Part shown: one piece after another, positions 1,896 through 55,743 of the stretch
Layout: every line of letters starts with the position of its first letter
Position numbering within the stretch: position 1 is the first letter of the stretch
NCBI GenBank assembly: GCA_029964075.1
Contig: CM057129.1
Coordinates: forward strand, 17,475,430 to 17,539,429
DNA: 64,000 nt
From: Patiria pectinifera
Taxonomy: Eukaryota; Echinodermata; Asteroidea; Valvatida; Asterinidae
Reading direction: 5' to 3'
Notes under the pieces: generated by a model
What the model was told of the DNA's origin: nothing
Database searches by the model: none
What the model saw: the letters and a program-made list of their open reading frames with translations, nothing else
Position numbers and translations under genes: made by a program

Positions 1896-1898
1896 GTT

Positions 1899-3606: not shown

Positions 3607-3610
3607 TTAA

Positions 3611-3890: not shown

Positions 3891-3907
3891 ATGGCATTTC
3901 CTGTTAA

Positions 3908-4422: not shown

Positions 4423-4426
4423 TTAA

Positions 4427-5975: not shown

Positions 5976-6289
5976 ATATGATAAGCTTGTGGCAGTTAAA
6001 TCTGTGCAGTTCTTATTTGTTATCAGCGCATAGCAATTTTCTAATAAGTATTTTTCTTCCATTTTAAGGATCTGCCGCTCTGCGAGTAACACGTACATGT
6101 TGTAAATCCACAAATTCAAATTCACCAGATGAGTTGGTTCAGTAAAAAAAAAGCGGCTTGCGGCAATTCATGAATATTCATTCCATGGAATCTAGGGCCT
6201 CTTTCATGCATCAGTTTCACTACGAGGCGCCTTTCGCTCTTTTTTAGTGGTTTTTTTTTTTCATCCAGAATCTGGAATGATCCCCAGGA

Positions 6290-7689: not shown

Positions 7690-7990
7690 TCGTGTCTCTC
7701 TGTTAGTTCGTAGGTTACAGTGTAGTTAGTTAGTTAGTAACAAACGTTCACATTGTCTATTGCTCCTCGGACCGATTTCAACCAAAATTTGTCAAATGTA
7801 GCAGTAGCCCAGCCCCAACATTTTACATGACCCAATTAGGGCAAAGGTCATCATGGGGTCATGGTCAAAATAATATCAGATTTCAAATAAGCTCAAATAA
7901 GCTCAAATAAGCTCAAATGTAGCGCTGTCAACATGTGGGCCTTGGTCAAACATTAAAAAATGTCCGTGGTGACCTCTTTATTTGACCTAC
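7690..7990 (+). repeat. Dispersed-type repeat R4 with AGGTCA-like words
   Basis: Begins CTCTCTGTTAGTTCGTAGG with TTAG tetramers, then GACCGATTTCAACCAAAATTTG, then GCAAAGGTCATCATGGGGTC. Copy B (53000-53240) keeps AGGGTCAAAGGTCATC intact. A three-unit AATAAGCTCA decamer repeat follows at about 7885-7917. The style matches common invertebrate dispersed repeats; the AGGTCA words also resemble nuclear-receptor half sites. Confidence 0.45.
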
Positions 7991-7999
7991 AGCATGTGC

Positions 8000-10070
8000 A
8001 ATACTACCAGTGAGTCGGTACTTCATACATGTAGTACTAAATTCACAATACACTGCCACGGCTGCATTCTACGCCACATCGCGCAGTTTGCGTGATGTGC
8101 GGGCCAATCTCCATATGAGGTGTTGTTAAATGACTTCTAGCGAGAAGGACATAATATCACTAGAGGAGTGTTTCGAAAAACATAGTAAAATCATTGGAAA
8201 TTTATCATTTTTGACTTGTTTTGACTTTTGGACCGAAAAAGTTTTCATTTTTTTTACCAAAAAGGTTTTTATGAATGGGAATAAATATGTTGCACTCCTT
8301 ATGCAGTCGTCCTCCAAGTGAAATTATGAATATAAGCAAACTACCTACCCAACAGCTATAGAAAATACTTTGAAGTTTATTCATTCTTACTGATACTTGA
8401 ATGCCAAGGAAACAGAGACAGAAAAATGATCACATTTCAGCCCCTAAATTAATAGAATTACTCATATACATGTGCAACCACTTACCAGCACAGAATTCAC
8501 CCTGCGTAACCATCTCATTAATAACACCATTGTTCCCAATTCACGCCCTTTAATCACATCCTAAAGGACGCAGATTTTTCCCCTTTTTTTTTTACCCTGA
8601 GAGTAGGAAGCCCTACCCCTCCCCTTCCATCTCCCCCGAGCTGTAACTTGCTTCCTACCCTCCGTCAAGACAATATTAATTATTTCCCTAGCCGTGGGGT
8701 CCTTGATTCAAGAGGTTTGGCAAACGCCCTTTTGCTGGCAACCTGCCCAGATCAATTTGGGGGTTTCTTATTTTCAGTTTTGTCCTTCTGAAGTCGGCTT
8801 TTTATTGGCGAAACTCTTTTGTTTTGTGACATCCTGTGGCATCTCGATCAACCACCAAGGAAGTATGAGTATACCATATTTATAAGTTTCAGGAATCAAA
8901 GTTATAAATAGAGTCTTTTTAGAGGGAAGAGGGTTGACGTACGGTAAAAACTTGGTTAGTTTTCATGCTTTGTAACACACATTTATGCTGGATAAAAAGT
9001 ACGGACTGAAATTGAAAGTCCTCGCAAATTATTATTATTTTTTTTTGCTTTGGCATGAATTTACCAGCTTGTACAGTGAATGGTTGAATGATTAAAAAAT
9101 ACTGGTTTTGGGGGGTTTTTTTTGTCTTCTTTGAAAGAGAAGTTTGAGCAAACTCTCTTTTTTTAACAATATTTCTATTCTTGTTTTGCTTATATATGTT
9201 TTATCTTGTACCAAAGATGGGTGGACAAACTGTAACGTGAGTTACCGTAACATGAGTTACCGAATATATCCCTCTAGAGCTGTTATGATTAGTTTTGTTA
9301 AATAATTGTTATGGTAGCATATGACTTAATGTACCATGTAACAGAACTAAACAGATTTCTTCAACAGTTCTCATTATGAGGAAACTTTTATGCAAGGTGC
9401 TTATTATTTTTTATTTCATGTGTCATTATTTTACAATATGAGTTACCAGTAAAAAATGTATTGCCAAACCAGCAGAACTTTATTTGTTTGCAAGATTTTT
9501 TTTATAGGTTAGTCACTTAATTTTAAGGGGTTTTCTGTGAGAAAAATCCATTCTAAATACTTTGACTATAGAATAACAGTACAAAATTGATGGAATACCC
9601 ATCTACATGTACATGTAAATGTAACTTTAGCGATTTACCATGGAATTACCCATAGAACAAACAACTGACTGCTGTTATACACCTACTTCAATTTGATGGC
9701 AATGTTAAAAAAAAAAAAATCTCCCTAGTCACATTATTGATGTTATTGATGTCCGTTCTGCATGACCGCTCGTCGAGCATGTCTAGCGCCCAGACGGACC
9801 GTTATCCTTCCTGAATGAGTCTGAGAAAATGATGGCTTTGAAAGCCTGTTGATGTTTTGACAATCGATTAGTTCCACGTTTATAATTCCGGAAAAGCGAT
9901 TCGATTTTACACAAGTTCCCAAAGCTTTCTAGATTTTTGAATGGATTTGAAAAAAAATCTAATCAAAATGATTTGTGATTGATTACCTTTATTTTTTTTT
10001 GTTAAACAGGCTGCTTGATATACGTGCAGAATATCATTTCCAAGGGAGTTTTTGAAGCTTCTGTCTGTGT
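8000..10070. other. Non-coding, conserved with copy B
   Basis: Collinear with 53290-55740 of B. 9232-9275 contains GTAACGTGAGTTACC words related to the ends of the nested MITE at 10093-10326. No gene recognised. Confidence 0.45.
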
Positions 10071-10077
10071 TGTCAGT

Positions 10078-10828
10078 ATAAAAGTAATATTTGGGCAATT
10101 CCACGGTTACTCACATTACATTTTCGTAACTTGAGTAACCGATTTTGTGTGTCTTGTTTATCATACATAACACATTTTTCTGGATGTCATCTTTGGTGCT
10201 TTAGGTCTAGGTCTACTCTATCTACCATGGGGATAACAGTATTAAACTTGTTAAGTAAGGTAATTACAGCCCAAGGAAACTCAAAAGTACATCAAAAATG
10301 TAACGTGAGTAACCTTGGAATTGCCCATTTGCTTTTGCTGTAATTTTCAGAAATGGATGGATTTGGGGGTTAGTATTTTATAGTAGATATTGTTACACTG
10401 ACCTTTTTAAAGTTTTTTTTTCATAGATGCTGGACAAACCAAGGACAAAAATGCTGTTCCTGTAGTCTGGTTCCCTGACCCTACTTCAGACGAAACGGAC
10501 AAACATATAGACCTCGGGAATTGTCAGGTCAAGGAATTAGACTAGCACCCGTTCACAGTATGTAACCGTTTGCAATTAAAATGTGGTCTAACTAAATTTG
10601 GTAAATTGGTGGCAGTATTTAAAAAAAGGCAGTTTTATTCCGATGGTCGGCCGAACATCGTTTGAAATTGATACAAAAATTCCACTTTCCTTGAAAATGA
10701 CAGCACACCAGGGGCCATTGTTTCACAGGATGTTTGAGGTTATTGTTCACTTACGGTCAAGTAAGGTATTTCATGACAATTTGACAGTTTTGTTTTCTGA
10801 TGTTTGCAAATGTTGTATATTATTACCT
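10078..10828 (+). mobile_element. TTAA-target MITE, family 2, interrupted by another MITE
   Basis: Same family as 3908-4422, ending at TTAA 10829-10832. Its left end is split by the 234-bp element at 10093-10326; the uninterrupted counterpart is 55744-56265. The central hairpin is partly decayed. Confidence 0.75.
10093..10326. mobile_element. Nested MITE with GGGCAATTCC ends
   Basis: Inverted ends of about 30 bp begin GGGCAATTCCACGGTTACTC and close with the complement. ATTT flanks both sides (10089-10092, 10327-10330). Copy B lacks it at 55755-55765, where the host element reads straight through, apart from about 7 bases missing in A. Superfamily not assigned. Confidence 0.75.
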
Positions 10829-10849
10829 TTAACTTGAGTTTGAAAACAC

Positions 10850-11345
10850 AGGCCAACAAATAGTGCACGATAAGACTTGCAACCCAGATTGCTGTATAAT
10901 TTATCAAATCTTGTACCCGGACTCGAAATCTTGCCGTCTCTGTGTAAGTACATGTAGCTTGAGGGCGAGCCTGTGCAATCTGCACTTTAGCCTGACAGTT
11001 GAGCGGTTCGGGTTCGCCTAGCCTCGGTAATCAGGCATCGTGTGAGCTTTTCAGAAGGGGAATCAAGTACATGCCAAAGTGAACAATCTCCCGTGAACCT
11101 AGCCTGGACACCCAAACCTTAAGCCATGGGTTTTTGATAATGTGTAGTGTCTGCAGCGTGCAACGCGGGAGGGCTTCCTTCAATAGGTGGCTGGCATACC
11201 AGGCTTGCTCTGGGTCTTATAATATAGTATTTGGGACAACAGATAACATCATCATCAGCGAGGGAGCTGCACAGTGCAAAGCCAATCTCCCGGTGAAAAT
11301 ATTTGACTTGCTTAAAGTGGCAGCCGCTCTTGTTTGGTTAAAGAT
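10850..11345. other. Highly conserved non-coding block, shared with B
   Basis: About 500 bases with only a handful of differences from 56290-56780, far fewer than in neighbouring sequence. No compatible exon was recognised. Candidate regulatory element or unannotated non-coding exon. Confidence 0.4.
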
Positions 11346-11599
11346 GCTCTCAGAATGATAAAAACAAAATGCGGGTATCTCGCATAGATTCTTTCTCTAA
11401 ATAAACAAAAAAATAGGTTTCATTTTTAATTTAATGGGTTTTTTTTCTGTAACAAACTCTCACAGGCACTTTTGCCAGGATCCTTCCTGCATACTCTGAA
11501 AATCCACTGTGAAGGTACCAAATCAATGTTTACGAAACTCGAGGGTCATCAAACTCTACTTCACTTTCCTAAATCCTGCAATATGGTGATATAAAGCAA

Positions 11600-12115
11600 G
11601 GTGATATAAAACATTTGCACACATAAAAAAAAACACACCATACTATCATGACTATGTAAGTGAATAATAGTCTCAAGCATCCTGTGAAATCATGGCAATT
11701 GGTGGGCTGTCATTTTTAAGAAAATTTGAATGTTTGTATCAATTTCCAACGATGGTCAGCCGACCATCGTTGGACAAAAACTGATTTTTTTTTTTTCTTC
11801 AAATACTGCCCTCAGTGTACCAAATTTAAGTCCACATTTTGTTTGCAATCACTTACGCATCCGTGAACGAGTGCAAGCCAGCTAGTCTGGTTTCCTGACC
11901 TGACAATTCCCCGACTCTATAAATTGCTCCGTTTTGTCCGAATTAGGGTCAGGGAAACCAGACTAAAAGAACAGCATTTTTTTCTTGGGTTTTCCAGCAT
12001 CTATGAACACGAAACTTTAAACAGGTCAGTGTAACACTATAAACCTATTAAATACTAACCCCCAAATCCATCCCTGAAAATTACAGCAAAAGCAAATGTT
12101 GTATATATTACCTTT
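11600..12115 (-). mobile_element. TTAA-target MITE, family 2
   Basis: Minus-strand copy with hairpin at 11746-11773. It is shared with copy B (57030-57541), so it predates the A/B split. Its terminal TTAA is decayed here and better kept in B. Confidence 0.75.
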
Positions 12116-12764
12116 GAAGTATTAATCTGGAAAAAAGTATACGACTCTTATATTACCTTTAAAAACTTTTGGGTGACTTGGAAAGCTGTGGGAGGGTCAG
12201 AGTATGCAATCATACACACGAAAAGGGTCCTACATTAACAATGTAAATGTACGTGTTACGTGTGTACTAGTATGGGTTTTGAAGATTTTACAGTAAGGCC
12301 GAATAAAAAAACCCACGTTTCTCGTCCAGGTTTTTGAAAAAAAGGAGGAAGAGGGGCTTTTTATTTTTTATTTTTGCTCGCAGGGTATAGACTCTCACGA
12401 AGACGTGTTTAGCGATCGCGCGTCGATTTATGTGGTGTACAAAGTGTCCGACAGAGTCTATACTGAATTTTTGACTTGCATATTTCGTAAGTATTTATTT
12501 TCCGATGAATTTGTGGACTTTTTTGGTGTTTTTTTACTGCATTTTTCAAAAGTAAAAAATAATTTAAAAAATCCAGGCTGCCTCCAAAAAGGAAGCGGGC
12601 GGGGACAAGAAACATGTTTTTTTTTACTTCGCCTAATTCCAACTTGTGATTATACACGTAGTGTGCTCGTATTCATAACACATATGTACATGTATGAAAG
12701 TTGGTCCCTATTGAATTTTTCATTTGCCCTTTTCAAACAAGACAAATAACCCTCCTATAATTGG

Positions 12765-13185
12765 CCATCCTTTTCACATTTTAACTTCTGCGACCATGAA
12801 TAATACGATGGAAATGAGAACCAAATGGTAGCCGGGGCCACACTTTGTGCCACGGGCAGTGATATTTGCCGCAGTATGTACACGAAGCGTACGTCATTAT
12901 AGACTGTTTCGTGGAGGTACTCGCTTTCAGTCAACAATCTCTGCCGATGACAAATACACTGTAGACGTCTACTACATCTTGAGTGGTTAATTAAAATGCA
13001 CAGTCTTTGTTTCTAATGGGAAGGCGTACCAGCGCACAGACAGACTTGGCACACATAGCAGTGCAGGCATGTGCTTCATGTAGTCTAGCCACGGGTTGTT
13101 TTCTTAAAGCAGATTTGTTTTGTTTTTTCAATGACACGGTAGAGGTACACTTAAAACTGTCACCCACCAAAAACTTAAGTTGCAT
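12765..13185. other. Highly conserved non-coding block, shared with B
   Basis: Matches 58200-58625 with very few changes, including GGTAGCCGGGGCCACACTTTG and CTGTAGACGTCTACTACATC. No conserved coding frame or splice pattern seen. Confidence 0.4.
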
Positions 13186-14044
13186 TTAGTTCACACATTT
13201 GAGGCAGAATACCTAAACTATGCAGTTAAAATAACGAGTGCTACATTGTAAGTTACTGAATTCGGTATCTGTAATTTTCAGGTGAGGGGAGCTGTGTAGG
13301 GCTGTTCATTTCGTGTTTGTTTATTCAAAACTGCATTGGATCGAATATTCAAAATTTGCTGATCAAGTTTTACATTTACAGCTGCAACAGCGCGCTACGC
13401 CGTTCAAAGTTATATGCAGAGCGCTCACCAGTTAAAATTGTGTGCTGCGTTGATATTATGGACTGTGTTTTGCAGTAGGCTTAGTTTGTTACTTGGGCTT
13501 TAACCTGCTAAAAGGAACCGGCATTGACACAGAAAAGCCACAAAAGTGGCATCTGACAATAAAGCGTCGCAAATTTATGACTAAAATAACATCACAGTCG
13601 TGTGTTTCTACGTGCATAGTTTTTTTTTTCCTCCCCAAATATTCAAACCAGCAAAATCCTATTCGAATATTCAGTTGATGATCAAATATTTTAATTTTCG
13701 GGGAAAACCCTAAAACTGTGGAATATTTGCATGTAATTATTAGTAAACTGAAAATTGTGGAAAATTCAATGTGTTTGTGCTCAAGAAAATGTAATTATAA
13801 AAAAAAAATTCTAGTACAATTTAGATCAAACAAATTGCTGAGATATGGCTTGGATGTTTTTCTTTTGACCTGCTAAAGTTTATATCTGTAACCACAGACA
13901 GTCTATTGTCACACTCAGCCTTAGTCACCCGTTCTTTGTCTAGCCTTTGTTATTCTTAGACTTTTTTATTACGTCCCTTGATAAGTAAAATATTAAGCCA
14001 TACAAAATTAAATCCATATGAATCAATTGATTTAAAAGCACTTG

Positions 14045-14320
14045 AAGGTAATGCAATATATGTACAACATTTGCAAGATATGGACTAACCAAATTTGGTA
14101 AATTGGGGGCAGTATTTGAAAAAAAAAGTCAGTTTTTTTCCTACGATGGTTGGCCAACCATTGTTGGAAATGGAAAATCCACTTTTCTTGAATATGACGG
14201 CACACCAGGTGCCATAATTTCACAGGAGGCTTGAGACTATTATTTACTTACAATCAAGTAAGGTTTTTAATAATAATTTGGTAGTTTTGTTTTTGATGTT
14301 TCCAAATATGTATATTACCT
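14045..14320 (+). mobile_element. TTAA-target MITE, family 2, internally deleted
   Basis: Keeps both ends and the central hairpin (14140-14167) but lacks roughly half of the full length. TTAA follows at 14321-14324. Shared with copy B (about 59475-59741). Confidence 0.7.
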
Positions 14321-14329
14321 TTAACGAAA

Positions 14330-14850
14330 TGAAAAACATAAAACAGAGGAAACAATGTTGAGTTTGCAATGGAACAAATTAAATGTATACCGGTAAATAT
14401 TAATTATTACAAATGAACCAAAATTTTCATTTTTTCCCCCTGCCATGGCTGTCTGCACATGCCAAACAACACGCTTTTAAACAATGTATCCACGGTGAAT
14501 TTAAGCAACAGAGCATAAAAGCCAATCGCCCCAAAAAAGACACACACACACAAAAACGGAGTACTACAAACGCTGGCCGGCGTAGTCCAAGGCATTTACT
14601 TGCCGCAGCTGTTCCTGCACTCCATTATTCCTATCACTATTAGCCTTTTCCCCCCGCGCTGTTGACACAGCATGCACAGAGCTAGCTGGGGAGATACGGG
14701 AAACCGGTTAGATATCTCCAGCACGGATGCTGCCTGGGTATTGTGTGTGGGTAATTGAGCCGGTTCCCAGCATCTTCACACTGTGTGCAACTGTTTTTTG
14801 CTTGGCGCAAAATTGTGTTCATGAACAAGGGGTGTATCTATTTTATCTTA
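14330..14850. other. Highly conserved non-coding block, shared with B
   Basis: Nearly identical to 59750-60270, including the CCGGCGTAGTCCAAGGCATT and GGGAAACCGGTTAGATATC words. Contains a short CA repeat that differs in length between copies. No gene recognised. Confidence 0.4.
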
Positions 14851-15449
14851 AACATTTTGTTTGATTGATGCTAGAAGAAGTACCGGTACATGTACTTAAG
14901 ATAAAATACGACTATAAATAAATGTTTAAACTATGCAACACTGTTATCATTTTTGCTTTAAATGAATGTTGTTGTTTTTTTAATTACACATCATCTGACT
15001 GAAATAAAACATAATATTAAAATGAAACAACCCATACAAATATTTGTCTGTTTTTACTTATTTTGTGTAAATACTAGATTATAAATTCAAGCATAATTAC
15101 GAAAGTACATCAAGATATTTTTTATTGAACAATGGAGCTAATGAATTAAACAGAATATTTGTTCAACCTAAAATCAACAGAGGCATTCTTAAAGTTGGCG
15201 AATTAGTTTTCCAAAAAAATATATTATGGAGAGATTCCAAGAAACCAATTTCTTTTACATGCATTTAGTATGCACATGTAATGCAGTGCATGTTTATTTA
15301 TGGTTTTATTAATTGTTTTTGCACTATATGTACGCATCATACAAATGGGCATATATACATCGTGACTAGCAGAAGTATCATTAGGTAATTATCAAGTCAT
15401 TATCTAATGGTGTCCAATCATTTCTTTTTAACAAAGAGAGAAAAAAAAT

Positions 15450-15880
15450 CCCTCTGTGTAAATTGTATCATAAGCCTAGCGCTAAGACCTCATTGCGGTG
15501 TGCCCAGCAGTAGTGCAGTTGCATTAGGAAGCATCCATCAGGCTTGGATTTAATCAAAGCAGGAGGCCCTATTGTGAAGTTAATGGCAGCTCGACGGCTT
15601 AAAGCAGTCCGCGAGGGTTTTATTATTATTTTTTTCTGTCTCCTTCTCTCTCTCTTGGAGTAGCATGCTGATCACAGTAAACAGTAATTGCTTTATTTAT
15701 GACGGGAGCGCGGAGCTCGCCGGATAATGCATTATGTACGGGCTGGTGGGCTGAATTAGTTGGGGTCCTGTTGATCCGCGATGGCTCGTACCGCTAATGC
15801 AACTGTGTCAGTGTGTTTGGATAGCGAGGGCCGGGAATTGATCAGTCGGGGAGAGAAACGGGACCGTCTGGAAGAAAAAT
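15450..15880. other. Highly conserved non-coding block, shared with B
   Basis: Only a few differences from 60870-61300 over about 430 bases, with a CG-richer base composition than its surroundings and homeodomain-type ATTA/TAAT words (GGATAATGCATTATGTACGG). A good candidate cis-regulatory module; no coding signal. Confidence 0.45.
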
Positions 15881-16799
15881 TGATATGAATGTGTTAGCAG
15901 ATAGAAACATTGGATTTTTGTATCAGTTCCAATTTTTGAGGCAAGGCTTAGAAAAAAATGTTGTGTTTCCTTCTACATTGGAAAGCAGGGTGGTTGGGCG
16001 GATTGTAACATGTTGTTTGTTGTTGGGGTTTTTTTTTGGCTCTGAATTTTATGGTCAGAAACAAAAATAGGTTGGGATGATGAAATTTTAATATTTCATT
16101 TATTTATTAATTTTTTACAAGCATTTGTAGCAGTTCACTTGTGAATCATTGTGCAAAATTAAAAAAAATCAAACAAATGCAGGATGATGTCTGCAAGAAC
16201 TAGGTTAGGGGCGACACAATAACCTTCTTTTTTTTCGAATGAAAAGATAGGGTCTGCATGACGTTTTGGTTGGTATTGGTAACCGGAAACACAAGCATTT
16301 TTTGTCTTCGCCTAAAAGGAACGCTGTTCAGTTGCCCTATATGAAACCAGACATGTACAAATGTAGGTAATTAACTTGCATGTTTTTGCATGTGTGAAAC
16401 ATTTTCTTGCCAGCCTTCTTGAACAATGTTTTCTAGTTTTAGGGGGGGGGGGGGGACTCCAAGACACTTTTTTTTGCTGCATGTGATTAAGCATACTGAA
16501 ATAGAAATAATTTCTAAAAAAAACTGACTAAAGTACATGTTCGTAAGTAAATAACAAAGTCATAGTGAAAGTGAATTTTTAGTTTAAAAAAAATTGAACA
16601 TTCAATTCTTGCACTATTCCTCGGTATTCCCCAAGTAAAAAAAAAATGAAATAGTTTCTCGCTCCTGCCCGATTCCTTTTTTCCGGCCACCTTCTTTTAA
16701 AAAAAAAAATGTATTCATACGTTTGTGGTCTAATTTGTACATTGTCACTATATTGTCTTTTCATTGTTTCCAACAAATTTGTAGCTAAAGGCTGCTTTA

Positions 16800-17168
16800 G
16801 GCCAAAAAAAAAAAGTCTCTGGTTTCTGGTATGGAGCTTGCCCAAAAAGCGGTGCGGCGACACGGCTTTTTTTTTTTTTTTTACCTGTTTTTTGCTTCAA
16901 ATGTCGGCTGATAACTGCAAATGGTGCCCGACTAAATTTAGTGCAATATTATGGGAGTCCAGAGAGGCCACATATAGCTTATTCTCGATCATAACCCCAT
17001 CTAAAAACACGTTAAAATTGTGCAGCAGCAGGATTCCAGTCAATCCAGTGAGTTTGGCGGTTTTGAGACATCATCTTTTATTGAAAAAAAAAAAATTTCA
17101 TTTTGCCGACGCGCATGGCTAGGGGGACGCGCGCGCATACCAGAAACCGGAGACTTTTTTTTTTGGCC
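16800..17168. mobile_element. Harbinger-like MITE (A-only), TTA target
   Basis: A 369-bp element starting GGCCAAAAAAA...GTCTCTGGTTTCTGG and ending with the complementary CCAGAAACCGGAGAC...GGCC. TTA flanks both ends (16797-16799, 17169-17171). Copy B has the empty site (GCTTTAGATAC near 62214-62225). A 3-bp TWA duplication is typical of PIF/Harbinger. The interior has CG-rich words (GCGGCGACACGGC, GACGCGCGCGC). No transposase. Confidence 0.85.
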
Positions 17169-17449
17169 TTAGACACAATTTTTTATCAGCAAAATAGTTG
17201 AGAAAACTGAAGAATTCATCCTCTATCTGGGAAAATCCACCATCTTGATTCAAACAGAAGAAGGAAAAAGGCGCTTACCTCCTTCATTTTTTGAAAACGG
17301 CCAAAGTATGGTAAATAGTAAAATTGTTAAAAGAAATCTAAACAATAAAATAAATTGGTGTTAGAAACAAGTAAAAATGTAAGTACATGTACTTGGTGTG
17401 ATTGCATTGAATCCTAATTAAACAAAATTAATTAAGAAATATGTACTGG

Positions 17450-17840
17450 TAATTCCAAATTATCTCCTGCAAGGACCAGCATGTGTTCAGATACTATATT
17501 TTGTCATTAAGCTATCCTTTCTCATTAATCTTCCCGCTATGCTTTGTCCCTGGGGAACACAGCCTGGTTCTGCCGTATATAGAAAGCTTCTGCCGTTATC
17601 AGTAATTGTATAGACTGATCGGGTGACAACAATTAGTTAGTCATAACTGCGGTGGTATTATCATGCTTGTGTGTGAAGCATTTTAGTGCTCGCCGAGTGC
17701 TCATTGGCCATGGACCCCACGCTCGAACAGTAGATGTTTTGCGACCACTTTCGAGAGTCTAGTGGGCAGGACTTACTGTGCGGACGGATTGGTTCGCACA
17801 ACTGAAAGTTATTTTATTTATGGGTGCAGAAACCAGTGGC
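17450..17840. other. Highly conserved non-coding block, shared with B
   Basis: Matches 62510-62900 with few differences, including CCTGGGGAACACAGCCTGGT and GACTGATCGGGTGACAAC. No gene recognised. Confidence 0.4.
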
Positions 17841-18739
17841 ATCTTTTTGTGTGAATTGGGTGCCTATGGTAATGCGTTTTGGAACGTCCATCCCAGTTGT
17901 CTTCGCCCAACTCTCCCTTTGTAATCGTTCGGGGTGCTTCTGTGCGTTGTAGGTACTCGTGTTTATATACGTATATCTCATATGGTGGGCTTTGTTATTT
18001 TAAATTTAGTTACAATGAGTGCACGAAAGGTTCACTCATGTCTATCCCCGGTGATGCAAAGCCACTGCGCTCAGACTCTGCCTGAACGCATTGAAGGTCT
18101 ATGGGCTCCGTGCGCAAACAAGAGGGGGCCTTTATTGACTGCCTTCCAGAGCCCCATGGATGGAACACTCACGTGCACGTACTCGTTTTATTCCGAATGT
18201 GCATAAGCATCAGGCATTGTTGGTGGTGCATTTGAATGTCAATCCAAGTGGTCTCCCCCAACTCTCCCTTCATGACCGTTGAGGGGTACTTGTGCACGGA
18301 GCACATAGGGCTGCCAAGATGCACCTTGAAATTTCAAAATGTATTTAAGATGGCCTCAAGTGAGGTGCCACCTCTTTTTTGTCCTCCAATTGTGATTAAT
18401 TACTTAATTAATTTTTTTTGTGGCAGTTCAAAGCTTTTTACTATTTTTTAATGCACTTTTATTTAATGTTACTTTGGTTGTGAGGCTTATGTACTTGGAA
18501 AGGAATTTTAAAAGATACAAAATCAGATACTTTTGTACTTGATTTGGAAATCAGTGTAATTGACAAATAACTGATGAAATTGGGTTGATCATAACTCCGC
18601 TGAATTTAACAAAATCCCGCAGTTATTTCTGTTGAATTCTGCTATCCAGAGACCAAAAGACTGTTTGTTCCAACCATTGGATTCTTCTTGATGGATGTGG
18701 TTTATTTTTGCAAATTTTGGAAAATTCTCTAACAGTGGA

Positions 18740-21158: not shown

Positions 21159-21658
21159 NNNNNNNNNNNNNNNNNNNNNNNNNNNNNNNNNNNNNNNNNN
21201 NNNNNNNNNNNNNNNNNNNNNNNNNNNNNNNNNNNNNNNNNNNNNNNNNNNNNNNNNNNNNNNNNNNNNNNNNNNNNNNNNNNNNNNNNNNNNNNNNNNN
21301 NNNNNNNNNNNNNNNNNNNNNNNNNNNNNNNNNNNNNNNNNNNNNNNNNNNNNNNNNNNNNNNNNNNNNNNNNNNNNNNNNNNNNNNNNNNNNNNNNNNN
21401 NNNNNNNNNNNNNNNNNNNNNNNNNNNNNNNNNNNNNNNNNNNNNNNNNNNNNNNNNNNNNNNNNNNNNNNNNNNNNNNNNNNNNNNNNNNNNNNNNNNN
21501 NNNNNNNNNNNNNNNNNNNNNNNNNNNNNNNNNNNNNNNNNNNNNNNNNNNNNNNNNNNNNNNNNNNNNNNNNNNNNNNNNNNNNNNNNNNNNNNNNNNN
21601 NNNNNNNNNNNNNNNNNNNNNNNNNNNNNNNNNNNNNNNNNNNNNNNNNNNNNNNNNN
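21159..21658. other. Assembly gap, 500 N
   Basis: Exactly 500 N, a round number that suggests a nominal scaffold gap. It separates the contig ending with copy A material from the contig with CEP120. Confidence 1.
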
Positions 21659-26500: not shown

Positions 26501-29500
26501 GGTGCCTTGGTACGGGAAGCATGGTGCTTGTGCTCTTGGGCAAGACACTTTACTACAATTGCCTCTCTCCACCCAGGAGTATAAATAGGTACCTGTGAGG
26601 GTAGAGACTAGAATGCGCTGATTTGAGCGGCTGCAAAAACTGGTCTCATTGCCTGATAAACAGGGTAATAATTGTAAAGCGCTTTGAGACCTTTGGTATA
26701 AAGCGCCATATGTGACCTGTTCTGTCAAAATCAGACTTTTCTGGGCATAAGGTCGAAAATGATATTTATACATATTGTTAAACATATGTTCTTTTTCCTT
26801 TTAATAGGTGGTTTAATTTCTGAAACCGGTCATTCCTGGGCAGAGTTATGCTATTTTGAAGTTCATTGTGTCGAAAAGTAGAAAACGGAGAAAATGGCCA
26901 CGAACGTCACAAAACAGTTATTTCTTGAACTGATATACCTTATCAAAATCATCAAAAATAGTAAATGTAGAGTTCAAATTAGGGTTTCAAACTTTTATAA
27001 TATATTTTAGACATGTTCAGGATTACAAATATGCAAAAATTTGAAAATCGATAAAAATCACCCCCACATGTTTTTTTTGGCCCTATCTCAATTTCAACTT
27101 CTGCCCAGAAGCGTCTGCTATTGACAGAACAAGTCACATATAAGCACCACATTATTATTATTATTATTGTGACAATAACGATGGCAGTGGCTATGAAAGT
27201 GACAGCGACAGTTAAAGTGACGATGGGAGTGACAGTAGCGGTGACAGTACCATTGACTACTGTCAATAACAGTGACATTGACAATGGTGCAGAAAGTGAC
27301 CGTTCCTGTGAATACAGTGACAGTCACAGTGACGATTGGGGTGACAATAACAATGACGGTAACTGTGACAACGGAAGTGACAATGACACTGAGAGTGACA
27401 AGGGTGATGAAAGTGACCGTGGCCGTGACATATTGATGACAACAATAATGGTGACCACGATAATAACAGTGACAATGTCAGTGGTGATTACAGTGATAAT
27501 CAAGATGATGATAATCATTTTTAGTGCTGGTGGTGTTGACAGTGGTATTGGTCATAATGACAAATCACATGGACAATGATAATCATAGTTATGTGGATGA
27601 GAGTGACATCAGATATAGAGTACGGAAGTCTGACGTCACCTGTCTTTGTTCTGGTTCACACGCTGGTTCACGCGATGAAGTCTTCACACACGTAAGCTAT
27701 GCGTGTGAAACAGAATATGTGGCACACTTCAGCACTCTGTAAGTGATTGGGATGATGGTGATAAAAAGGACAAAGACAACAATAGTGAACATTTTTTTCG
27801 AACTTTGTTTTATCTATTAAAAGATTTACCTGTCTCAGCAAATCACAGGGTCTTAACAACTTCTTTTTGTTGTTGACTTCATCCAGTTGATTCCAGGCAA
27901 CCAACAGCAACGACGAATATGCACCCAGTGCCAGAACCCACAGCACAACCCCCGACACAACCAGTGAGAGACGACGCCTCTATCTCCACCAGCCAGCCAC
28001 ATGTCATGATTGATGCCCCAGCGCATCACTTCTCAATCTCTATCGATCTCCGCAGCATTAAGAATGTTGAAACCGCTACAAATTTGAATATTTATTTAAG
28101 GTGAGATTAAATTGGTTTACTCTGTTCTAGTCATGTGAGCTTGGGATTCGCTTTGCAATAAAGCTTTTCACCTGATAAGATTCAGGTAGGCCTAAAAATG
28201 AATTCTACTTATTTTCACAAAACTCTACCCACTTTATTTTGTCTGTTTTTGTTTTCTGGTTTGTGTATTATTATTATTGTCTGTGTGTTTTTATTTTTTT
28301 TTATTTATACGTATTTTTCTGGGTTCCTGGCAGTTAAATTGCTTTACATGCTTATTGTTTCTCTTCTCGGTTTCTATTTTTCTCTTTTCTGGTAACGTAC
28401 ATCATGTAACTGGTTGTCGATTGTCATGTCTATCTGCCTTTGTCATTTTTTTTCTGCTATATACAGTAAACTCTTGTTAAAGGGAAGATACAACATTTGC
28501 AACCATCAAAAAACGAAATGATCAAATTATCACGAAATATCTTACTGCATAGTAGGGAATGACATTCTAAAGCACCCTGTAAAACCGTGGCTCCTGGTGT
28601 GACATTTTCAAGAAAATGGTATTTTTCCAACGCTGGTCGGCTGACCAGCTTTGGAAAAAACTGGCTTTTTTTTTTTAAAACTGCTCTTAATTTTTCATAA
28701 GTAGTTTTTCCACATTTTCATTGCAATTGATTACACACCTGTGAAGGGGTACAAGCCTGCCGGACTGATTTTCTGACCTTTTTCCCCAAATTTGACAAAC
28801 TGCTCCGTTTCATCTTGAGTGGGGTCTGGAAACCAGACTACAAGAACACAATGTTTTTCTAGGTTTTTCCAGCATCTCTAAGCCCAAAACGTGATACAAG
28901 TCAGTTTAACAATATTTGCTATACATTTCTAATCCTCCAAATCCACTTACTACTGAAAACTGCAGCAAGAGCAAATTTTGTACATTCCCTTTAACTTGAA
29001 ACTCAGTTTGTCTCAAAGTGATGCTCCATTCCTGTGAAGAGAATAGGATATTATGTACATGAATACCCCGGTAACTCAAAATGCCCGCACGGTTGATCTT
29101 GAACTGTTGTTCGGCCAGTCTATAGAAAACACTACCAAAACAGTCACAAAGAAGCGTAAAAAAATCGCGAGTTTTTTTTCATTACTGCACTACGTACTTT
29201 GTCTTTTCGTGTGGGGATACAGCGTGCATGCTGCATTGTGATTGGACTCAAGCCCGTAACTGCAACAAATTTTGGCTTTGACTTAACAAGGGTTTACTGT
29301 ATTTGTTTTGGGTCTTTATCTAAATCATTTTATATGTTTGTATTTTCTTGAAGATACCTGTATCCCTTTTTCGGGAGTGTGTCTCCCATCCTGACCCACC
29401 CACCCATCGAGGTGCGACGTCACACTGAGGTCCTCCTACCCCACTCCTACTGCTCCTTCAACCTGGCTGCTAAAACTAATCTATTTCATTTCCTTGCAGG

Positions 29501-32500
29501 TACCTGTATCCCTTTTTCGGGAGTGTGTCTCCCATCCTGACCCACCCGCCCATCGAGGTGCGACGTCACAACGAGGTCCTCCTACCCCACTCCTACTGCT
29601 CCTTCAACCTGGCTGCTAAGACTAATCTATTTCATTTTCTTTGCAGGTACTTGTATCCCTTTTTCAGGAGTGTGTCTCCCATCCTGACCCACCCACCCAT
29701 CGAGGTGCGACGTCACACCGAGGTCCTCCTACCCCACTCCTATTGCTCCTTCAACCTGGCTGCTAAAACTAATCTATTTCATTTCCTTGCAAGGTACCTG
29801 TATCCCTTTTTTGGGAGTGTGTCTCCCATCCTGACCCACCCGCCCATCGAGGTGCGACGTCACACCAAGGTCCTCCTACCCCACTCCTACTGCTCCTTCA
29901 ACCTGGCTGCTAAAACTAATCTATTTCATTTCCTTGCAGGTACCTGTGTCCCTTTTTCGGGAGTGTGTCTCCCATCCTGACCCACCCACCCATCAAGGTG
30001 CGACGTCACACCGAGGTCCTCCTATCCCACTCCTATTGCTCCTTCAACCTGGCTGCTAAAACTAATCTATTTCATTTCCTTGTCAGGTACCTGTATCCCT
30101 TTTTCGGGAGTGTGTCTCCCATCCTGACCCACCCACCCATCGAGGTGCGACGTCACACCGAAGTCCTCCTACCCCACTCCTACTGCTCCTTCAACCTGGC
30201 TGCCACCGTGCAGCAGCTCCAGGAAACCCTGCTCAGGTTAGTGGCCAGAAAACAAACAAATGGTTTCTTTCTTTCTAAAAATAAGCTCCTTGTGGCACCC
30301 ATTCAAAGCAATGTTAGAAATTGGCAGAGGTACTTGCTCACAGAGTCTATTTAGTAATTAGAAATATATCTGGATAGTAGCGCAATGACAGTGTACTATA
30401 GTTTGTTCTGCGCTCCCACCAAAACTGTACATTTTTGACAAATTGATATACTGCTAGATCCTTTTCCCATTTCCCAAGATTAATTTAGAATTGGGATTTT
30501 ATTGCCCTTCACCAGAATAGTTTTGTATCCTCAGGATGGATGGAGAGCTTGCGGGGAAAATATCCATTCAATAATATCCTTTAAAAAAAAATTACATTTC
30601 CCTGTGCGAAATTTAATCCCAAAAGCATGACGGGAGACATTGGTCATTAGGGAAACATTTTCATGTCTCCCTAATGTCACAGCCCCCCTTTAGAGGCAAA
30701 ATGTTACTGTGGCAACTAGAATATATATTTGTTGCTCGTGGTCTAATTAGTAAACATACCGAAATTCGTGGGAAAAGAACAAGGGAATATTGGGTTAGGG
30801 CACATTTAAGTTTGAAAAATTGTGTGCACAAGTCTATGGGGAGGTCTCCCAAATGTCCAATCCGGGGTAATTATTATTATCATTATTATTATTATCATTA
30901 TTATTTAACAAGACGAATCAGGTAGAGCGGGAAAAGTGCAAGCACTATAAGTTGCCCCTGGGCAACCCCCACACACTTCTGAAGCGTCGAAGAAGGAAAC
31001 ATGAAACAATACAGAGACAACAATAAAACAAAAACAAAAAACGAGCTACGGACGTTGGCCGGCAATTTCGTGGAGCTCCAAAAAAAAATGCTGCTTGGCA
31101 TGTACATTTGGTGAAAAAAAAAATGTGCCGGGAACAAGTCACAAGTAACCTAAATCCAATGACAATTCAGTTGGTAACACTTTCTTGCTCCAAACATATT
31201 TTGTTTGCTCTACAAATTTCTGTGTTTGGAAGATCCGTAAAATTGGCCGCCAACCCTTGAGGCCAAGCAAGTATTGACTCCCTTGTGTGAAATAGTTGTC
31301 AGCAGCGTATTGATTTCTGTAGACTGATAATTTGTCCAGGGTTCCTTTGCTGGTGGAAATATGGCACAGAGACAGGATGACCAAGGACCAACTGCTGGGA
31401 GTGGCCAGGGTGCCTCTAGCTGGCGTACTGAGGGCTGAGAAGGCTAGAACAGCCGTGAGTATTACTGACATATTGAGTAAGATTCTGGCTAGGTTGGTCA
31501 TTGTCCCTTTTATCTTTTGCCGTGTAAAGTAAGTAGAGCAAAGTCTGTCAAGATCCAATATGATGACAATCACCGTAAATTGACTAGGGAAGCTCAAATG
31601 TTTATAATTAGGTATGCAAGCATACATTCTGTGCCAAGTAGTCCTTTCAGTCACAATCAATCAAGTGACTGTTTTCAGCAGTTAATTCCCAGCCCACATA
31701 AAGCAGGATTGACTGGCTGGGACTGTTTATGTACCTCAATGCAGCTTTGCTTTGGCTGTGGGTAATTGATAAGCAAGCTGTGCCCACAACTTGCCTGCTT
31801 TGTCTGTTTATGGTCTGTTGACTGAGTTTGACTAGTCACAGTGCTTGCTTGCCATATGATCTGACTGCTGGTGACTAGCGTGTGTTAAAAGTGTAGCAGG
31901 GGAAGTGGATGGAAATTTTGACTGTCTGTGGCTGTTTAAATAGCAGGAGGGTTAGTGGCGCAAATAGGCCTGTTGCGACCCTCAGTTTGTTTCACAGATG
32001 TTTTCGTGGTCATTACTCCCCTAGTCTATCCAACCTGGGACCTCCAATCAGAATGTTTAAGAAACTCGACTTTCCATCTGTTTTCATCCATATGCTGTTG
32101 CTATCACCTAGATGTAGAACAAAAGGATATTCCCATCACTTTTTCTCACGTGCTGCATCTCTTTGGAATTCCTTGCCTGGTGCTTGTTTCCCTCCAACAT
32201 GGGTTGGGTGGCATGGGTGGCTTGTGCATAAAGCGCTCGCCTCTCACTAAGGTGACCACGGTTCGAATCCTGGCTGCGGATCACATGTGGGTAGAGTTGT
32301 GCGTTGGTTCTCTCCAGTGCCAAAAGTTTTTTTCTCCGGGCCCTCCGGTTTTCCTCTCTCCGGAAAAATCAAACACTTTCGATCTCAGGCTGTGCTCCAT
32401 GGTCATATATGGGTCGATGTGGCTGGCAGCCATAGGCGCCTTTATGTGCCAGCGGCCCGACCACGTTGTAGTCGCGTCCTTCGCATTTCAGCATACCAGC

Positions 32501-43537: not shown

Positions 43538-45080
43538 TCACAATTTAAAGCCACTTAATATTTGTTTTATATAACTGACTTATAGATCTTTGTCATTTGA
43601 TATACTTTGTCATTTCATTTGGTATTTGAACTTTATTTCAATACAAAATTGGTGAAAAAAATGTATTTCTCTCTTCCAAACCACCCCTTCTTGAAAATGT
43701 TTGAACCCAACGCTGTAGCACTGGCTCTTTGAAACAATACGCGCTACGCGCAATGCTAAACGTGCACACCAGCATGCATTTTCACACAAATATCACGTCA
43801 TGGAACAAGACTGATCCCAACTGTTCAATAGTATTTCCCATTCCCCATGGGCGGATAGTACTTTTTGAGCTCTGGCGTGAATGGCAGTAATAACGAATGA
43901 CACGTGATGTGAGTTCCACCAATCAAATGACAAGGATCTGTATGTCGGTTATATAATCCCAACTACTGTTGGGCAGTCCCAGCTACATGTATAGTTGGGA
44001 CAGTCCAAACTATAGTTGGGGTGTAGCAAGTCCGTTAGGAATTGCTATTAACTCTTAACTAACACTTTTCGTCTTAAAAAAAAGAAAGGTTTTGCTACTG
44101 ATGTCAGATAAACTGCATGGTAACCCCTTGAAACTAGACATGTACTTTAGGACTACTACATATATCAGAAGGTACATGTACATGTACTTGTACTGCTAAG
44201 GAAAAAATGAGTAATTTCTTTGCAAATTTCCACTTTTTCCTCTCGGAAATTGGTCTTACAGCCTTGTTATGGGATAGGTTTCCTCCCAGGGGCTTTTTGT
44301 AGTACCCAGATTTAAAAATATATAGGCCTACCGGGTACGTGTACAAAATTGCATGGTACAGATTTCTGAATGCAATTTTATGCACACGTATCGAGAAAGA
44401 AATTGGGGCGACGACAGTGTGTCCAAAGAAGTTTAGACAAAGAGGCCCTGATGTTCCTGGTTGAAGTCTCAACTCGTGCCTGCCTGCTTCTGATTTCCTG
44501 TTTGAAAACTGGCCTTTCCTGTCCTGATATTCCCCCACTCCTAACTTCTTTTTCCCCTCCCCCCAGTCCTTTACACCCCCTTCACCCCCAGCACGCCAGT
44601 GTTGTACACATGGGAAATGGATGGCTAACGCTAATTGGGCACCAGACACCTGGCTACAGGAACTCTGTGAGTTGAGGGCACGTGTTGACATTTAGTCCGT
44701 CCCTGCAGGCTTTCTGTTTTCCCCCTCGAGGTCCCCCCAGGCAACCAGATACCTAGCCACCTCTTTCCCTCCTTTTTTACCCCCTTCCTTTTAGTTACAA
44801 TTTCAAAATAAATGTAACTGTGCATAATAACTCTAGTTTATTCAATTTAATTGAATGATTGATGGTGATTGAGTCAATATGTCAACTTGTAAAAATTGAC
44901 GCCTAGGTTGGTGATTTTCTTTTTGTAGGGGCCGATTTCCCTTTTCCAATTGCTCAAATGTTACCAAAAAAATAGTCAAATAGTGGAGGCATTTTCAGTG
45001 GGATTTTTTCCCTCTGTCATTCAACATGCATCTGATGGAGTCTGTTTCTTTCTATAGAATGTGTGCGAGGAGCACGACTC
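43538..45080. other. Intergenic, nothing recognised
   Basis: Contains GTACATGTACATGTACTTGTA near 44172, and C-rich stretches near 44540-44600. Open frames here have no family signature. Confidence 0.5.
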
Positions 45081-45360
45081 ACAAAAGAAACTTTACAGTA
45101 ACGCCTTGTTACCTCAGAACAAAACGAACGAAGGGCTTTGCAATGAAGTGAAGCCATAATAGAAAGCCAGTGCTCATTAACAGGTGGATGATGACGTACA
45201 TGTACTATAAGGTTTTTGAGTTTTCACAAAAGAAACTTTATAGTAATGCCTTGTTACCTCAGAAAAAAAAATGAATCAAGGGCTTTGCAATGAAGTGAAG
45301 CCATAATATAAAGCCAGTGCTCATTAGCAGGTGGATGATGACGTACAGATGTACTTACAC
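45081..45360 (+). repeat. Two-copy tandem duplication, 145-bp period
   Basis: ACAAAAGAAACTTTA starts at 45081 and 45226. Both copies continue with GGGCTTTGCAATGAAGTGAA and CAGGTGGATGATGACGTACA. Small differences only, so a fairly recent duplication. Confidence 0.9.
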
Positions 45361-46039: not shown

Positions 46040-46303
46040 CATGGGCGTCGCCAGGATGGGGCATGGGGGGTACTTACCCCCCCCCCCTTCCCAACGGGGT
46101 TGGGGTGGGCAAATGTCCCCCTGCCCACCCTCGAAAAAATGATAAATTGAGAATATGCTAGAGTGCCCGGGAGAATTTTATTTAAATGGATTTTGCGCTA
46201 TATAAATGGATTTTATTATTATTATTATTAGAGAAAGTACAAGGATTTTCGGGGAAAATGTGCTTCCCCCCCTCCCCCAGACAAAATCCTGGCGACGCCC
46301 ATG
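46040..46303. mobile_element. hAT-like MITE with 8-bp target duplication
   Basis: The ends are perfect inverted repeats of 18 bp (CATGGGCGTCGCCAGGAT and its complement), flanked by GTGATAGT (46032-46039) and GTGATAGC (46304-46311). It has no coding capacity and contains a long C run. It sits inside a minus-strand copy of a dispersed repeat. The related plus-strand copy near 49460 keeps the uninterrupted site (GCTATCAC), which confirms the target duplication. Eight-base duplications are typical of the hAT superfamily. Confidence 0.8.
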
Positions 46304-47129
46304 GTGATAGCGTAGCTGAATGTCAGCTACGGTAGAGAGGGCGGGTTTTTAAATTAATTAATTTTAATTATGGTAATGTTGCTTCCCCTTTCAGCATTAC
46401 TGTAACAACAAATACCATCGCTTACAAGAGATGTGTTCAAGTTATTGTTTTACCAGCATGCCATGCAGTCCAGCCTGAGTTCACAAAGTGCGCCCTCTTT
46501 AGCGGATGTGGATCACTCATTGCCCCAGACTGTGATGGCCAAAACAGATGGTTTGAAAGTTATCCCAGTGTCTCTGCAGTGCGTGTGATACATTTGACAA
46601 ATTTATTAAATTTTATGTTTTATGAAAACATGTCCTTAACATAAAGGGATACAATAATTAGTATCTAGTATTAGAAATGCCATCCTCACAAATAATAAAA
46701 TGAGAATCATTTGATGCCGTGATCATTCTGAGGCATTTTACTTTGTGCATTCGTAACCTGTCTTTTGATGGTCATGCCCTTAAATAAATTTGGGGGGAGG
46801 GGGGCTAATCATCCTTACTTGCAGCCAAAGCAGAAGTGCAATGGACGCAGCTACGGTTGTGCCGAAGGCATGTTAGAACCTAGTCTTATGGCAAAAGAAC
46901 ACATGGTATATTTGTTTTCCCAGTTGAAACTGCAGAAATCGCAGTTTCATGCCCAGTGTCCTTTTGTTTCAAACCTACAGGAATGAACTGACTTTAGTAT
47001 GTTGGTCTATCAAGTACCGTTATCATTGATGAAAGGAAGCCTGAACTGACGCCTTACAAAACAAGGAACTCTGAGGTAAGTTAGTCATAGTGGTTTAAGG
47101 AGGATGGTGTTGTGGCTTGTCCATTATGG

Positions 47130-47564
47130 GGTAATCCTTATCTTTAGGACACCTCTATTTTTACGAGTTCTGTTCAAAAACTGACTTTTGCAGATGACTG
47201 TCCAGTACCAAAGTGACTTTTGCTGGCTAAAGCAGTCTTGTTTCTTCAGATAAACTCGTGTTAGTTGTAATTTTGAAAGCACTTTCAACGAAAATGTGAC
47301 TTTTCTACCTTTTTTTGCAGTTCGCCATCTTGCTTTTTTGATATATTTTCTGTTTGTCATCGTCGTCTTTAATCCCTCATAAATCAAAGCCCTACCATCT
47401 TTCTACAAAATTAAACCTGCTGTTTAAGAAGGTGTCATTGCCAACTGTTCAAATGTGTCAAGAAATATCAGAATGTCACTTTTGAGTGTCATTTAGTCAG
47501 CAGTTTTGGTGAGTCTTTTATAAAAACCTTATATAGGAAAGGGGTCCTAAAAGTAAGGATTACC
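47130..47564. mobile_element. hAT-like MITE (B-only), 8-bp target duplication
   Basis: A 435-bp element with inverted ends GGTAATCCTTA / TAAGGATTACC and further paired words (CTTTAGGAC / GTCCTAAAAG). Flanked by CATTATGG (47122-47129, 47565-47572). Copy A has the empty site near 1006-1020. Non-coding. Confidence 0.85.
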
Positions 47565-48404
47565 CATTATGGGATGGTCATTTTCCATTTCACCAGTAAA
47601 TATGCCAAAGAATGAATTGTTCTGTTTTCTCTTCGCCTCAATCCTCCAACAATCTCCATGTGGTTTTGGAGGATTTAGCTAAATGGCAAAAAGTTGTCGG
47701 TTGATTTTGGAGGATGCTTTGTGTCGAGTTCGTATGCTGTACCCTGCATTGTTTATATTCAGCCATGCATAATTGAGCCCAGAGTAATGCTCGGTGTCAT
47801 CTGCACTGCTTCTGAATGTCAGCGGCACTGCCTCAACCCATTAACAGTGATTGTTGGAGGATTTTGAAGGATTGAAGCAATGGTCACCCCTCCATTGAAA
47901 AAATTCAAGAAGTAACGGATGATGTAGCCCCTGTACTTTTAGTTTTAAAAGGGTCCCAACTCTGAACTAGCCTATAGTTGTATCTGAGAAATTTGGGATA
48001 AAATGGGACCCGAAAATTGCCCTCTTTTTTGGCAATAATTCAAACTGGCGATGGGCTTCAAGACTACTTTTAGGTTATCATCTTTGGAGGGAAAGAATCA
48101 CCCAAATGTTAACCCCCCATAAAAAAAAATTGAACAGAAAGTGAAAGAGGTTGAATGCATGCTTTAATTTGATGTATAACGTGAACACCTGTGAGAGACT
48201 TTTCCTAGTTTGTTTGTTAAGTGGAGGCATTTATCATTGGCGCCTGTGGGAATTTATTGACTGGTCTGCACCCACAAGTGTATAGGCCTATGTACATTGT
48301 ACATGCCCCAGAGGTGTCTGAAACTTGTGATAGATGGCATTTTGTGCTTGTAAGAAAGGTGTCAGTATTGTCAAGTGAGTGTTGTTAAAAAATACATGAA
48401 CGAT

Positions 48405-48570
48405 GAGTTGCGAGTTACATTTTTCAGGCATGCAACTTTTCCTTGGATCCGCTGATTTCCTCATTGACTTCTCATGAATGCCATTACAAATTGAAAAACA
48501 CTGTACAAAGTCTTGTGTGGTTTGGAGTTTCCTCGTTTTTTCTAAATTCCCAGTTGCATACTCTCTCTTG
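48405..48570 (+). repeat. Dispersed repeat R2 (copy B)
   Basis: Counterpart of 1899-2080, sharing the same core and order of words. Confidence 0.6.
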
Positions 48571-49449
48571 CCCAGGGGATCCGCCAAATATTTTTCGTGG
48601 ATTTGTTATTTATTTTCCCCAAATCTCACCCATGCATTGTACACATAAAATTGTACATATCACGATGCAAATGGACAATAAACAATATTTCAAAACACAC
48701 TTAATAAAGACATCAATTAAGAAAATGGAACCCAATTTGGCATTCAAGTCACACCCAATGAAACAATTTTCAATTAATTAGGATTAAAGATACATTGTCA
48801 ATCAAATATGCGGGGTCAAGGAGATGAAATGACCATGTCAACGATTCAATTTGGTCAAGCTCCATGTAATTGGGTTTGTCAGCTTTTGCCACAAAGGGAC
48901 GAACAAGCAGAGTTTTATAGGCACGAAATTGAGTTGCAGCTGTGTGGGACACCCACAAATTAGTCGGATCAGCCCCGTCATCTTCACACATGGCTGTTTT
49001 TGCGGTCTACTGCCCCTAATCTGCCCTTTCCTGTTTTTTTTTTTTTTAGAGGGGGGGTTGGGTGTTTGGTTTTGGGTGTTTTTTTTTATAGCCTGGGCCA
49101 TCACAAATGAGGTTGCTTCATGAACCAATCACAGACTCTGAACATTGAGATGTCAAGCGTGACAGCTAAAGCACCATTTCCTGAAAATTAGTGCCAGATT
49201 GACTTGAACATAAGGGGTATTGTTTACAAAATGTCTACATTGTATTTTTTTATTTATTTTTTTGGTCTTTGCTGTGTCAGTTGCATAGGCTTATTCCCCA
49301 TCGTAGTTACAGTCAAGTGAAAACGTCATACCCTTCCAAAGCAACTTGTTGAGAAGTGAGAACCAGTACCAGTGTTAATGTCTCAGGTACACTACACGAT
49401 CTGTCCTATTTACACATTGTACCCTGTATACAACATATCTTCTGGCTGA

Positions 49450-49870
49450 CAACTTCAGTTACGCTATCACAGCAGTCAAAATCAATCAAGTGACTGTTTT
49501 TAACAGTTACGAATTCCCTTTCTTATTTGATATACACGTAGCCTTGCTTTGACTGCTTTAGCCATGCTTTGACTGCTTTAGCCATGCTTTGACTGCTTTA
49601 GCCATGCTTTGACTGCTTTAGCCATGCTTTGACTGCTTTAGCCATGCTTTGACTGCTTTAGCCATGCTTTGACTGGAGGTATGGAGGTGATTGATATGCC
49701 AGCTATACATGTACATGTACTTACCAGTTACCTCTTTTGTCTGTCGATGGAACATGACAGGAATGTGATCTGACTGGATTTTTTTTGCTAGTCTGTATAC
49801 AAATGCATGGCAGAGGAAGTGGAAGAAATTGTTTTGACTGTCTGTGACTGATCAAACAATAGGAGGGTTT
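49450..49870 (+). repeat. Dispersed repeat R1 (copy B)
   Basis: Uninterrupted form of the repeat at 3040-3890. It contains the expanded VNTR and preserves the empty target site of the hAT-like element found at 46040-46303. Confidence 0.65.
49541..49675 (+). repeat. 20-bp VNTR, 7 units
   Basis: Seven head-to-tail units of GCCATGCTTTGACTGCTTTA: the first has one substitution and the last is incomplete. Units are otherwise identical, so the expansion is recent. Confidence 0.95.
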
Positions 49871-50689
49871 CAATTATTAATGTACACATGGCATTTCCTG
49901 TTAAGTCAATATTGGCCAGTTTCAATTTTTCTTGTTTACAGTAAACCTGTACAACAAACACTAAACATGCAGTAGAAGTTATTCTTGTGTCCATTACATG
50001 TACTTCTCAATTGCTTCAGTCTCACAGTGCAGTCGTTTCCCCTCCCGTTCCAGTCTTATTTGTTCATTCCGTTTGCCTGCATTAATCACAGGAATTTAAG
50101 CAAACCTTGTCTTGGCCGCGCACCTTGCCGTCGAAATGAAACCCATTTCCTGAGGCGTTCTTTCTTGTTCTCATCAACACTCCTCACATGCTCCATTTGC
50201 TTGCAGCCGCAAAGATCACCGTGACGATAAATGTCGAGAACGGAGCTTGGGAAGAGCGCACTCAGGGCAGGCGACACTGCATGTTTGCGTTGGATCGATA
50301 AATAAGTCATTTTAATGAATGAATGCTTGAAACTTCAGCCATAGGGGGAAAAAACATAATTAATGTGCATTTAAATTGAGTACATGTAAATTCCAATGTT
50401 TAACAATTTATGTGGAGGCTTTGAACAGACAATCGCAACTGAACAAATTGTGAACTTGTTATTTGATGTTGCCTTCTGGAATTGTTTATGATCGTGTGGC
50501 GGGAAATCTGTTCTGTACAGTTCTTCAAGGAATACTTTCGATCGGAATGCACCTTTCAGGCATCTAAAGCATGTTTCTAACAAATGTTGGAAGGGTCATT
50601 AAAATGTAGAAAATATATGTTCACCAGAACGACAAGGATACCTTGAAAATAAACATTTGGGTCCCTGAAAATCGTGCTGTTAGAGCGCT

Positions 50690-51270
50690 ATTCTTTTGGA
50701 AAAGTTGCTTCAATGTATGTGTTTGAAGGGTTCATGAAATGAGTTTTACATTGGTGCATATATTTGTAGAAAATTTCCAGCCCTCTGAAATGTACAAAAA
50801 ACTCTGAAACATCCCTTTATTTGGGGGTAAAAATCACTATTTTAAACATTTGAAATGTTTCATGCCTTTCCTGACCATGCACTGAGGGCACTGTTGCTGT
50901 GATGTCACTTTAGCAAAAGAATCTTTGGATTAGGGTTGTAAACCCAAGATTTTGCTGATTGAAAACATTTGGGCATAAAGTTTTCTCATATAATCTTACT
51001 GAAACAGCAATGAGTCACCGCAAGCAGGGAGGTAGCCACAGCAGGCCCCCCAACATTCTGTTGACTGTTTATACTGAAGCAGATGTGAAACTGAAGTTTC
51101 TGCCTTGAATGACATCACAGTTTTGCTCATAAATATGGAAATTTGCATTAGCATACAAATAAAAAAGGCACTAGCCCTTGAAATGCCAATATGATTATAA
51201 ATATAGTTAAATATAGGACACAAAGGTATATTTCAGTGATCGCATTTTTAAAAAGTCCACTACATGGGCC
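50690..51270 (+). repeat. Dispersed repeat R3 (copy B)
   Basis: Counterpart of 5230-5975 without the 173-bp insertion. Confidence 0.6.
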
Positions 51271-55648: not shown

Positions 55649-55743
55649 TTAAGTTTATTTTTTTTTTAACCAGGCTGTTTGATATATACATGCAGAATAT
55701 CATTTCCAAGGGAGTTTTTGAAGCTTCTGTCTATGCTGTCAGT

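Follow-up and report, generated by a model that had tools for sequence, protein, structure and literature searches.

The CEP120 gene of Patiria pectinifera contains six tandem copies of a unit that spans an intron–exon boundary, and this array is best read as a young minisatellite that is mostly tolerated. The array agrees with every structural feature examined of the 'mirage' minisatellites of amphioxus genes, a likeness known here from the sequence of one assembly. We consider it probable that the array is a mirage-type minisatellite that lacks a selected function and is spliced mainly to the acceptor at 30087. The window analyzed here is the whole stretch of 64,000 nucleotides, numbered from its first letter.

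Organization of the repeated intron–exon boundary in CEP120

Each unit joins 117 nt from the start of a CEP120 exon, 150 nt long when complete, to an intron tail of about 28 nt that includes the AG. TRF delimits the array at 29342-30203 with a period of 147, 5.9 copies and a score of 1564, and it reports a second period of 293 bp, equal to two units. The exon starts of the six copies (Table 1) are spaced by 146, 147, 147, 146 and 147 nt, and a branch-point-like CTAAT lies about 20 nt 5' of the AG in every unit. The end of the exon and the donor, CAG|GTTAGT, are found in copy 6 only. The array exon matches the third C2 domain (C2C) of mouse CEP120 (PDB 6flk, 6ewp; E about 5e-17), Pfam PF12416 (Cep120) is matched by an exon near 23.4 kb, and further CEP120 exons were located between 24.1 and 38.3 kb by tblastn with a human CEP120 probe that served as a search query only. 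The complete exon is in phase 2 on both sides and joins the flanking exons in frame across introns of about 1.1 to 2 kb; the splice boundaries were placed by hand, and the frame is consistent across the array. The same human query detected no N-terminal (C2A) exons of CEP120 in the window, including between the assembly gap and 23424, and the number 6 given to the array exon in the original prediction is therefore provisional.

Table 1. Positions of the array copies, the adjoining CEP120 exons and the neighboring DNA element in the window
Feature	Position	Strand	Description
CEP120 exon 5' of the array	27887..28100	+	ends TATTTAAG|GTGAGA, phase 2; placed by tblastn with a human CEP120 fragment, splice boundaries and frame
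DNA element	28462..29302		841 bp; terminal inverted repeats TACAGTAAAC...GTTTACTGTA; recognized by inverted ends and diverged copies in the window
Copy 1	29354..29499	+	146 nt; exon part and intron-like tail; acceptor TTTTCTTGAAG|AT (TTGAAG|AT)
Copy 2	29500..29646	+	147 nt; acceptor TTTCCTTGCAG|GTACCT
Copy 3	29647..29793	+	147 nt; acceptor TTTCTTTGCAG|GTACTT; G-to-A change creates an acceptor-like site at 29668
Copy 4	29794..29939	+	146 nt; weakened acceptor TTGCAAG|GTACCT
Copy 5	29940..30086	+	147 nt; acceptor TTTCCTTGCAG|GTACCT; in-frame gain of 49 residues if used
Copy 6	30087..30236	+	complete 150-nt exon; acceptor CCTTGTCAG|GTACCT; donor CTGCTCAG|GTTAGT
CEP120 exon after the array	31340..31454	+	placed by tblastn with a human CEP120 fragment, splice boundaries and frame

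The copies have diverged from one another. Their 117-nt exon parts differ pairwise at three to seven positions, and private changes are present in all six. One substitution is shared by copies 2 and 4 and another by copies 3 and 5, which, in combination with the 293-bp period, suggests that two units were duplicated at once. The units differ by three indels in all, every one of them located in the intron-like tail rather than in an exon part (Fisher p 0.0045), a bias that might reflect a degree of constraint on the copies, short runs prone to mutation or simply the youth of the array. These three, single-base changes adjoining the AG, account for all of the differences in unit length; selection for 147-nt units, with three separate 1-nt gains if 146 nt is ancestral, is suggestive only. 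Six amino-acid changes in the internal copies stand against four synonymous events, and copies 1 and 6 carry synonymous changes only. The numbers are too few to test and small, and the changes in the internal copies, which include Y-to-C, E-to-K and P-to-S in copy 5, are consistent with relaxed constraint or with internal copies that are not translated. Copy 1 is a distinct edge copy, preceded by GTATTTTCTTGAAG|A instead of the repeated tail; the two upstream sequences are weakly alignable (19 of 500 shuffles score equally well). The original prediction of an array in CEP120 at these coordinates, with an exon end and donor in the last copy alone, is thus borne out by TRF, the unit boundaries and the C2C match, and the private substitutions in every copy agree with its view that the array is not a simple assembly stutter.

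Acceptor strength and the predicted product of each acceptor

What would be made from six acceptors and a single donor? When the upstream exon is joined to acceptors 1–4, the reading frame meets premature stops 259 or 699 nt before the next exon junction, and the corresponding isoforms, with exons of 443-883 nt, are therefore predicted targets of decay. Acceptor 5 defines a 297-nt exon that is translated in frame with 49 additional residues, and acceptor 6 defines the 150-nt exon of the normal protein. An intact CEP120 frame thus requires the acceptor of copy 5 or copy 6. Translation here reproduces the outcome that had been predicted for every acceptor.

The acceptors had also been described as six near-identical sites of which the last may be the strongest. 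Copy 1 differs from the others, which follow the repeated tail, and the strengths are uneven, with altered AG contexts in copy 4 (GCAAG) and copy 6 (GTCAG). In a general metazoan matrix, a rough one built on approximate frequencies, copies 1 to 6 score 6.4, 12.1, 12.4, 5.7, 12.1 and 9.4 bits. In a matrix of the gene's own sites, likewise rough and drawn from the inferred sites of 11 other CEP120 introns, they score 5.0, 10.7, 8.6, 2.8, 10.7 and 4.9. The acceptor of copy 6 lies below those of copies 2, 3 and 5 in both matrices, so that its description as the strongest is not supported, and the extra acceptor-like site in copy 3 is also strong. On these scores, the strength of the last acceptor was rejected as the ground for a neutral expansion. 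The neutral option itself is favored by the precedent of the amphioxus mirages (PMC3087553, PMC3902484), and the position of copy 6, nearest the only donor and favored by exon definition, is a better reason for neutrality than acceptor strength.

We propose that a tandem duplication took in the 3'-terminal part of a CEP120 intron, with its branch point, pyrimidine tract and AG, as well as the first 117 nt of the next exon, and that the duplicated segment may have expanded to six units via unequal exchange or conversion. The pre-mRNA would be spliced mainly at 30087, as we infer because this acceptor is nearest the only proper donor and defines the normal 150-nt exon. Transcripts that use acceptors 1–4 would be removed by decay, and some leakage to acceptor 5 may place the 49-residue insert in C2C. 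In long-intron contexts, the sites that are closest across the exon are favored, and for alternative 3' sites in long introns the preference for the upstream site is reduced, not clearly reversed (PMC9225289). The lack of a clean reversal in that 3'-site result and the stronger acceptors of copies 2, 3 and 5 argue against the dominance of 30087.

Amphioxus mirages and alternative readings of the array

The closest counterparts of the CEP120 array are the mirages of amphioxus, in which an intron–exon boundary is duplicated in tandem like a minisatellite (Adh3, TnC, BflGb6/BflGb9 and PGBD5). In the globin gene BflGb6, the 3' end of an intron and the 5' part of an exon are repeated as 150-160 bp units, six and three of which are present in two haplotypes with unit identities of 81-100%; edge units are excluded from homogenization, and many units carry AG/GT (PMC3087553). 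RT-PCR suggests that splicing of BflGb6 is undisturbed by the repeats (PMC3087553). Further amphioxus mirages are found in troponin C (TnC), PGBD5 and Adh3 (PMC3902484), the last as described in PMC3087553. The CEP120 array resembles that of BflGb6 in boundary make-up, unit size, a copy number of up to six, turnover by unequal exchange and the presence of AG/GT. It displays units that span the boundary, a complete in-frame exon adjacent to them, and signs of turnover with a distinct edge copy. Unlike the published mirages, it lies in a new gene, its unit of 146/147 nt makes the frame outcome vary, and its copies 2–6 all keep AG|GT together with the branch point and pyrimidine tract. From the present analysis, neutrality is the best-supported reading of the array.

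The retained AG|GT sites raise the unlikely alternative that the array erases itself. Units with dual-specific AG|GT would be removed whole as introns after the upstream exon has been joined to any of copies 2–5: the regenerated donor AAG|GTACCT would be spliced to a later copy, leaving a normal mRNA by way of an exon of zero length, comparable to recursive splicing and to the UBC repeats. Copies 2–6 read [C/A]AG|GTAC[C/T]T at the unit junction and are thus potential dual-specific sites, each unit has its branch-point-like CTAAT before the AG, and as donors these copies score 5.0-5.2 bits in the general matrix, inside the 3.9-11.2 range of the gene's inferred donors. However, the true donor GTTAGT is stronger in that matrix (8.6), the gene-matrix scores of copies 2–6 (2.3-5.8) lie below those of all inferred CEP120 donors (6.2-11.9), and copy 1 has no GT at its junction. 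The tandem AGGT units of human UBC are removed by stochastic splicing, and introns of that type show an 8.4-fold enrichment in tandem repeats (PMC10809524). UBC resembles the CEP120 array in that AG|GT at each unit boundary could make the units removable as introns, whereas its units are complete in-frame coding modules and those of CEP120 hold an intron tail, with only the last complete. In potato, an RdRp gene acquired a new intron when a segment crossing an intron–exon boundary was duplicated (PMC4974935). Under this AGGT model, the duplication spans the intron 3' end and the exon start with branch site, pyrimidine tract and AG, as in CEP120, where use of a new intron would be hypothetical. 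Donor competition and post-splicing suppression of regenerated donors, as seen in Drosophila, disfavor recursion (PMC8605326). If the array did erase itself, missplicing to copies 2–5 would be corrected, which would explain the tolerance of boundary repeats in lancelet genes and show intron gain under way.

The remaining alternatives concern the transcripts and the assembly. If acceptor 5 were used often enough, CEP120 would also be expressed as an isoform in which 49 residues of C2C occur twice; copies 5 and 6 are in frame and free of stops, acceptor 5 outscores acceptor 6 (general matrix), and the exon that it defines is of normal size. Such an isoform is nevertheless quite unlikely, given that the insert would break the compact eight-strand beta sandwich of the C2 fold (PMC5990496), that copy 5 bears the three substitutions named above and that ciliopathy mutations in the neighboring C2B domain destabilize the protein. 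The original prediction had also raised a regulatory role, in which alternative 3' splicing between a productive acceptor 6 and upstream acceptors that lead to stops and decay tunes CEP120 output. The upstream acceptors are indeed strong and the frames differ by acceptor, but unstable tandem repeats are a poor substrate for a conserved switch, published mirages reportedly leave mRNAs unaltered (PMC3087553, PMC3902484) and the UBC repeats show neither tissue nor feedback regulation (PMC10809524). This reading is very unlikely, and nothing in the present analysis supports an output-tuning role. Inflation of the copy number or misjoining of haplotypes in the assembly is highly improbable: the units bear private substitutions and distinct acceptor variants, the array lies outside the duplicated segment of the window, and BflGb6, whose draft assembly was itself aberrant, demonstrates that arrays of this kind can be real (PMC3087553). 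However, the window does contain an assembly gap of 500 N, and its colinear ~17-kb repeat resembles an uncollapsed haplotype, which makes the copy number somewhat provisional.

As a probable mirage-type minisatellite, the CEP120 array is a clear further case beside the few lancelet genes known to have repeated intron–exon boundaries. Its unit-specific markers make it a natural test of acceptor choice among several good acceptors with one donor, and it offers a test of whether tandem AG|GT duplications lead to new introns. A single locus read from its sequence does not change the general picture.

Repeats and a putative transposon around the array

The intron upstream of the array contains the 841-bp element, which ends about 40 nt 5' of the array and, judging from its inverted ends and its diverged copies, is likely a non-autonomous TA-target DNA transposon. 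These copies, which cover most of the element, lie near 3.9-4.4, 10.3-10.8, 19.4-19.9 and 55.7-56.3 kb. A transposon origin of the array was considered and rejected because the sequence of the element is absent from the repeat unit.

Among the TRF arrays of the window, no other mirage was found at the edges of CEP120 exons. A repeat with a period of 147 bp also occurs at 45079-45347 (1.8 copies, 91%), and it overlaps no located CEP120 exon. A direct repeat of ~17 kb flanks CEP120, with its colinear copies at 1-18132 and at 46146-63200. The copies share 90-96% identity over most of their length, differ by indels as well, and have the appearance of either a segmental duplication or a second haplotype that was left uncollapsed and set in tandem. 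The assembly gap, exactly 500 N at 21159-21658, lies between the first copy of this repeat and CEP120. The two ~17-kb copies each contain 3.6 copies of the 10-bp repeat TCAAATAAGC, at 7883-7918 and 53193-53228.
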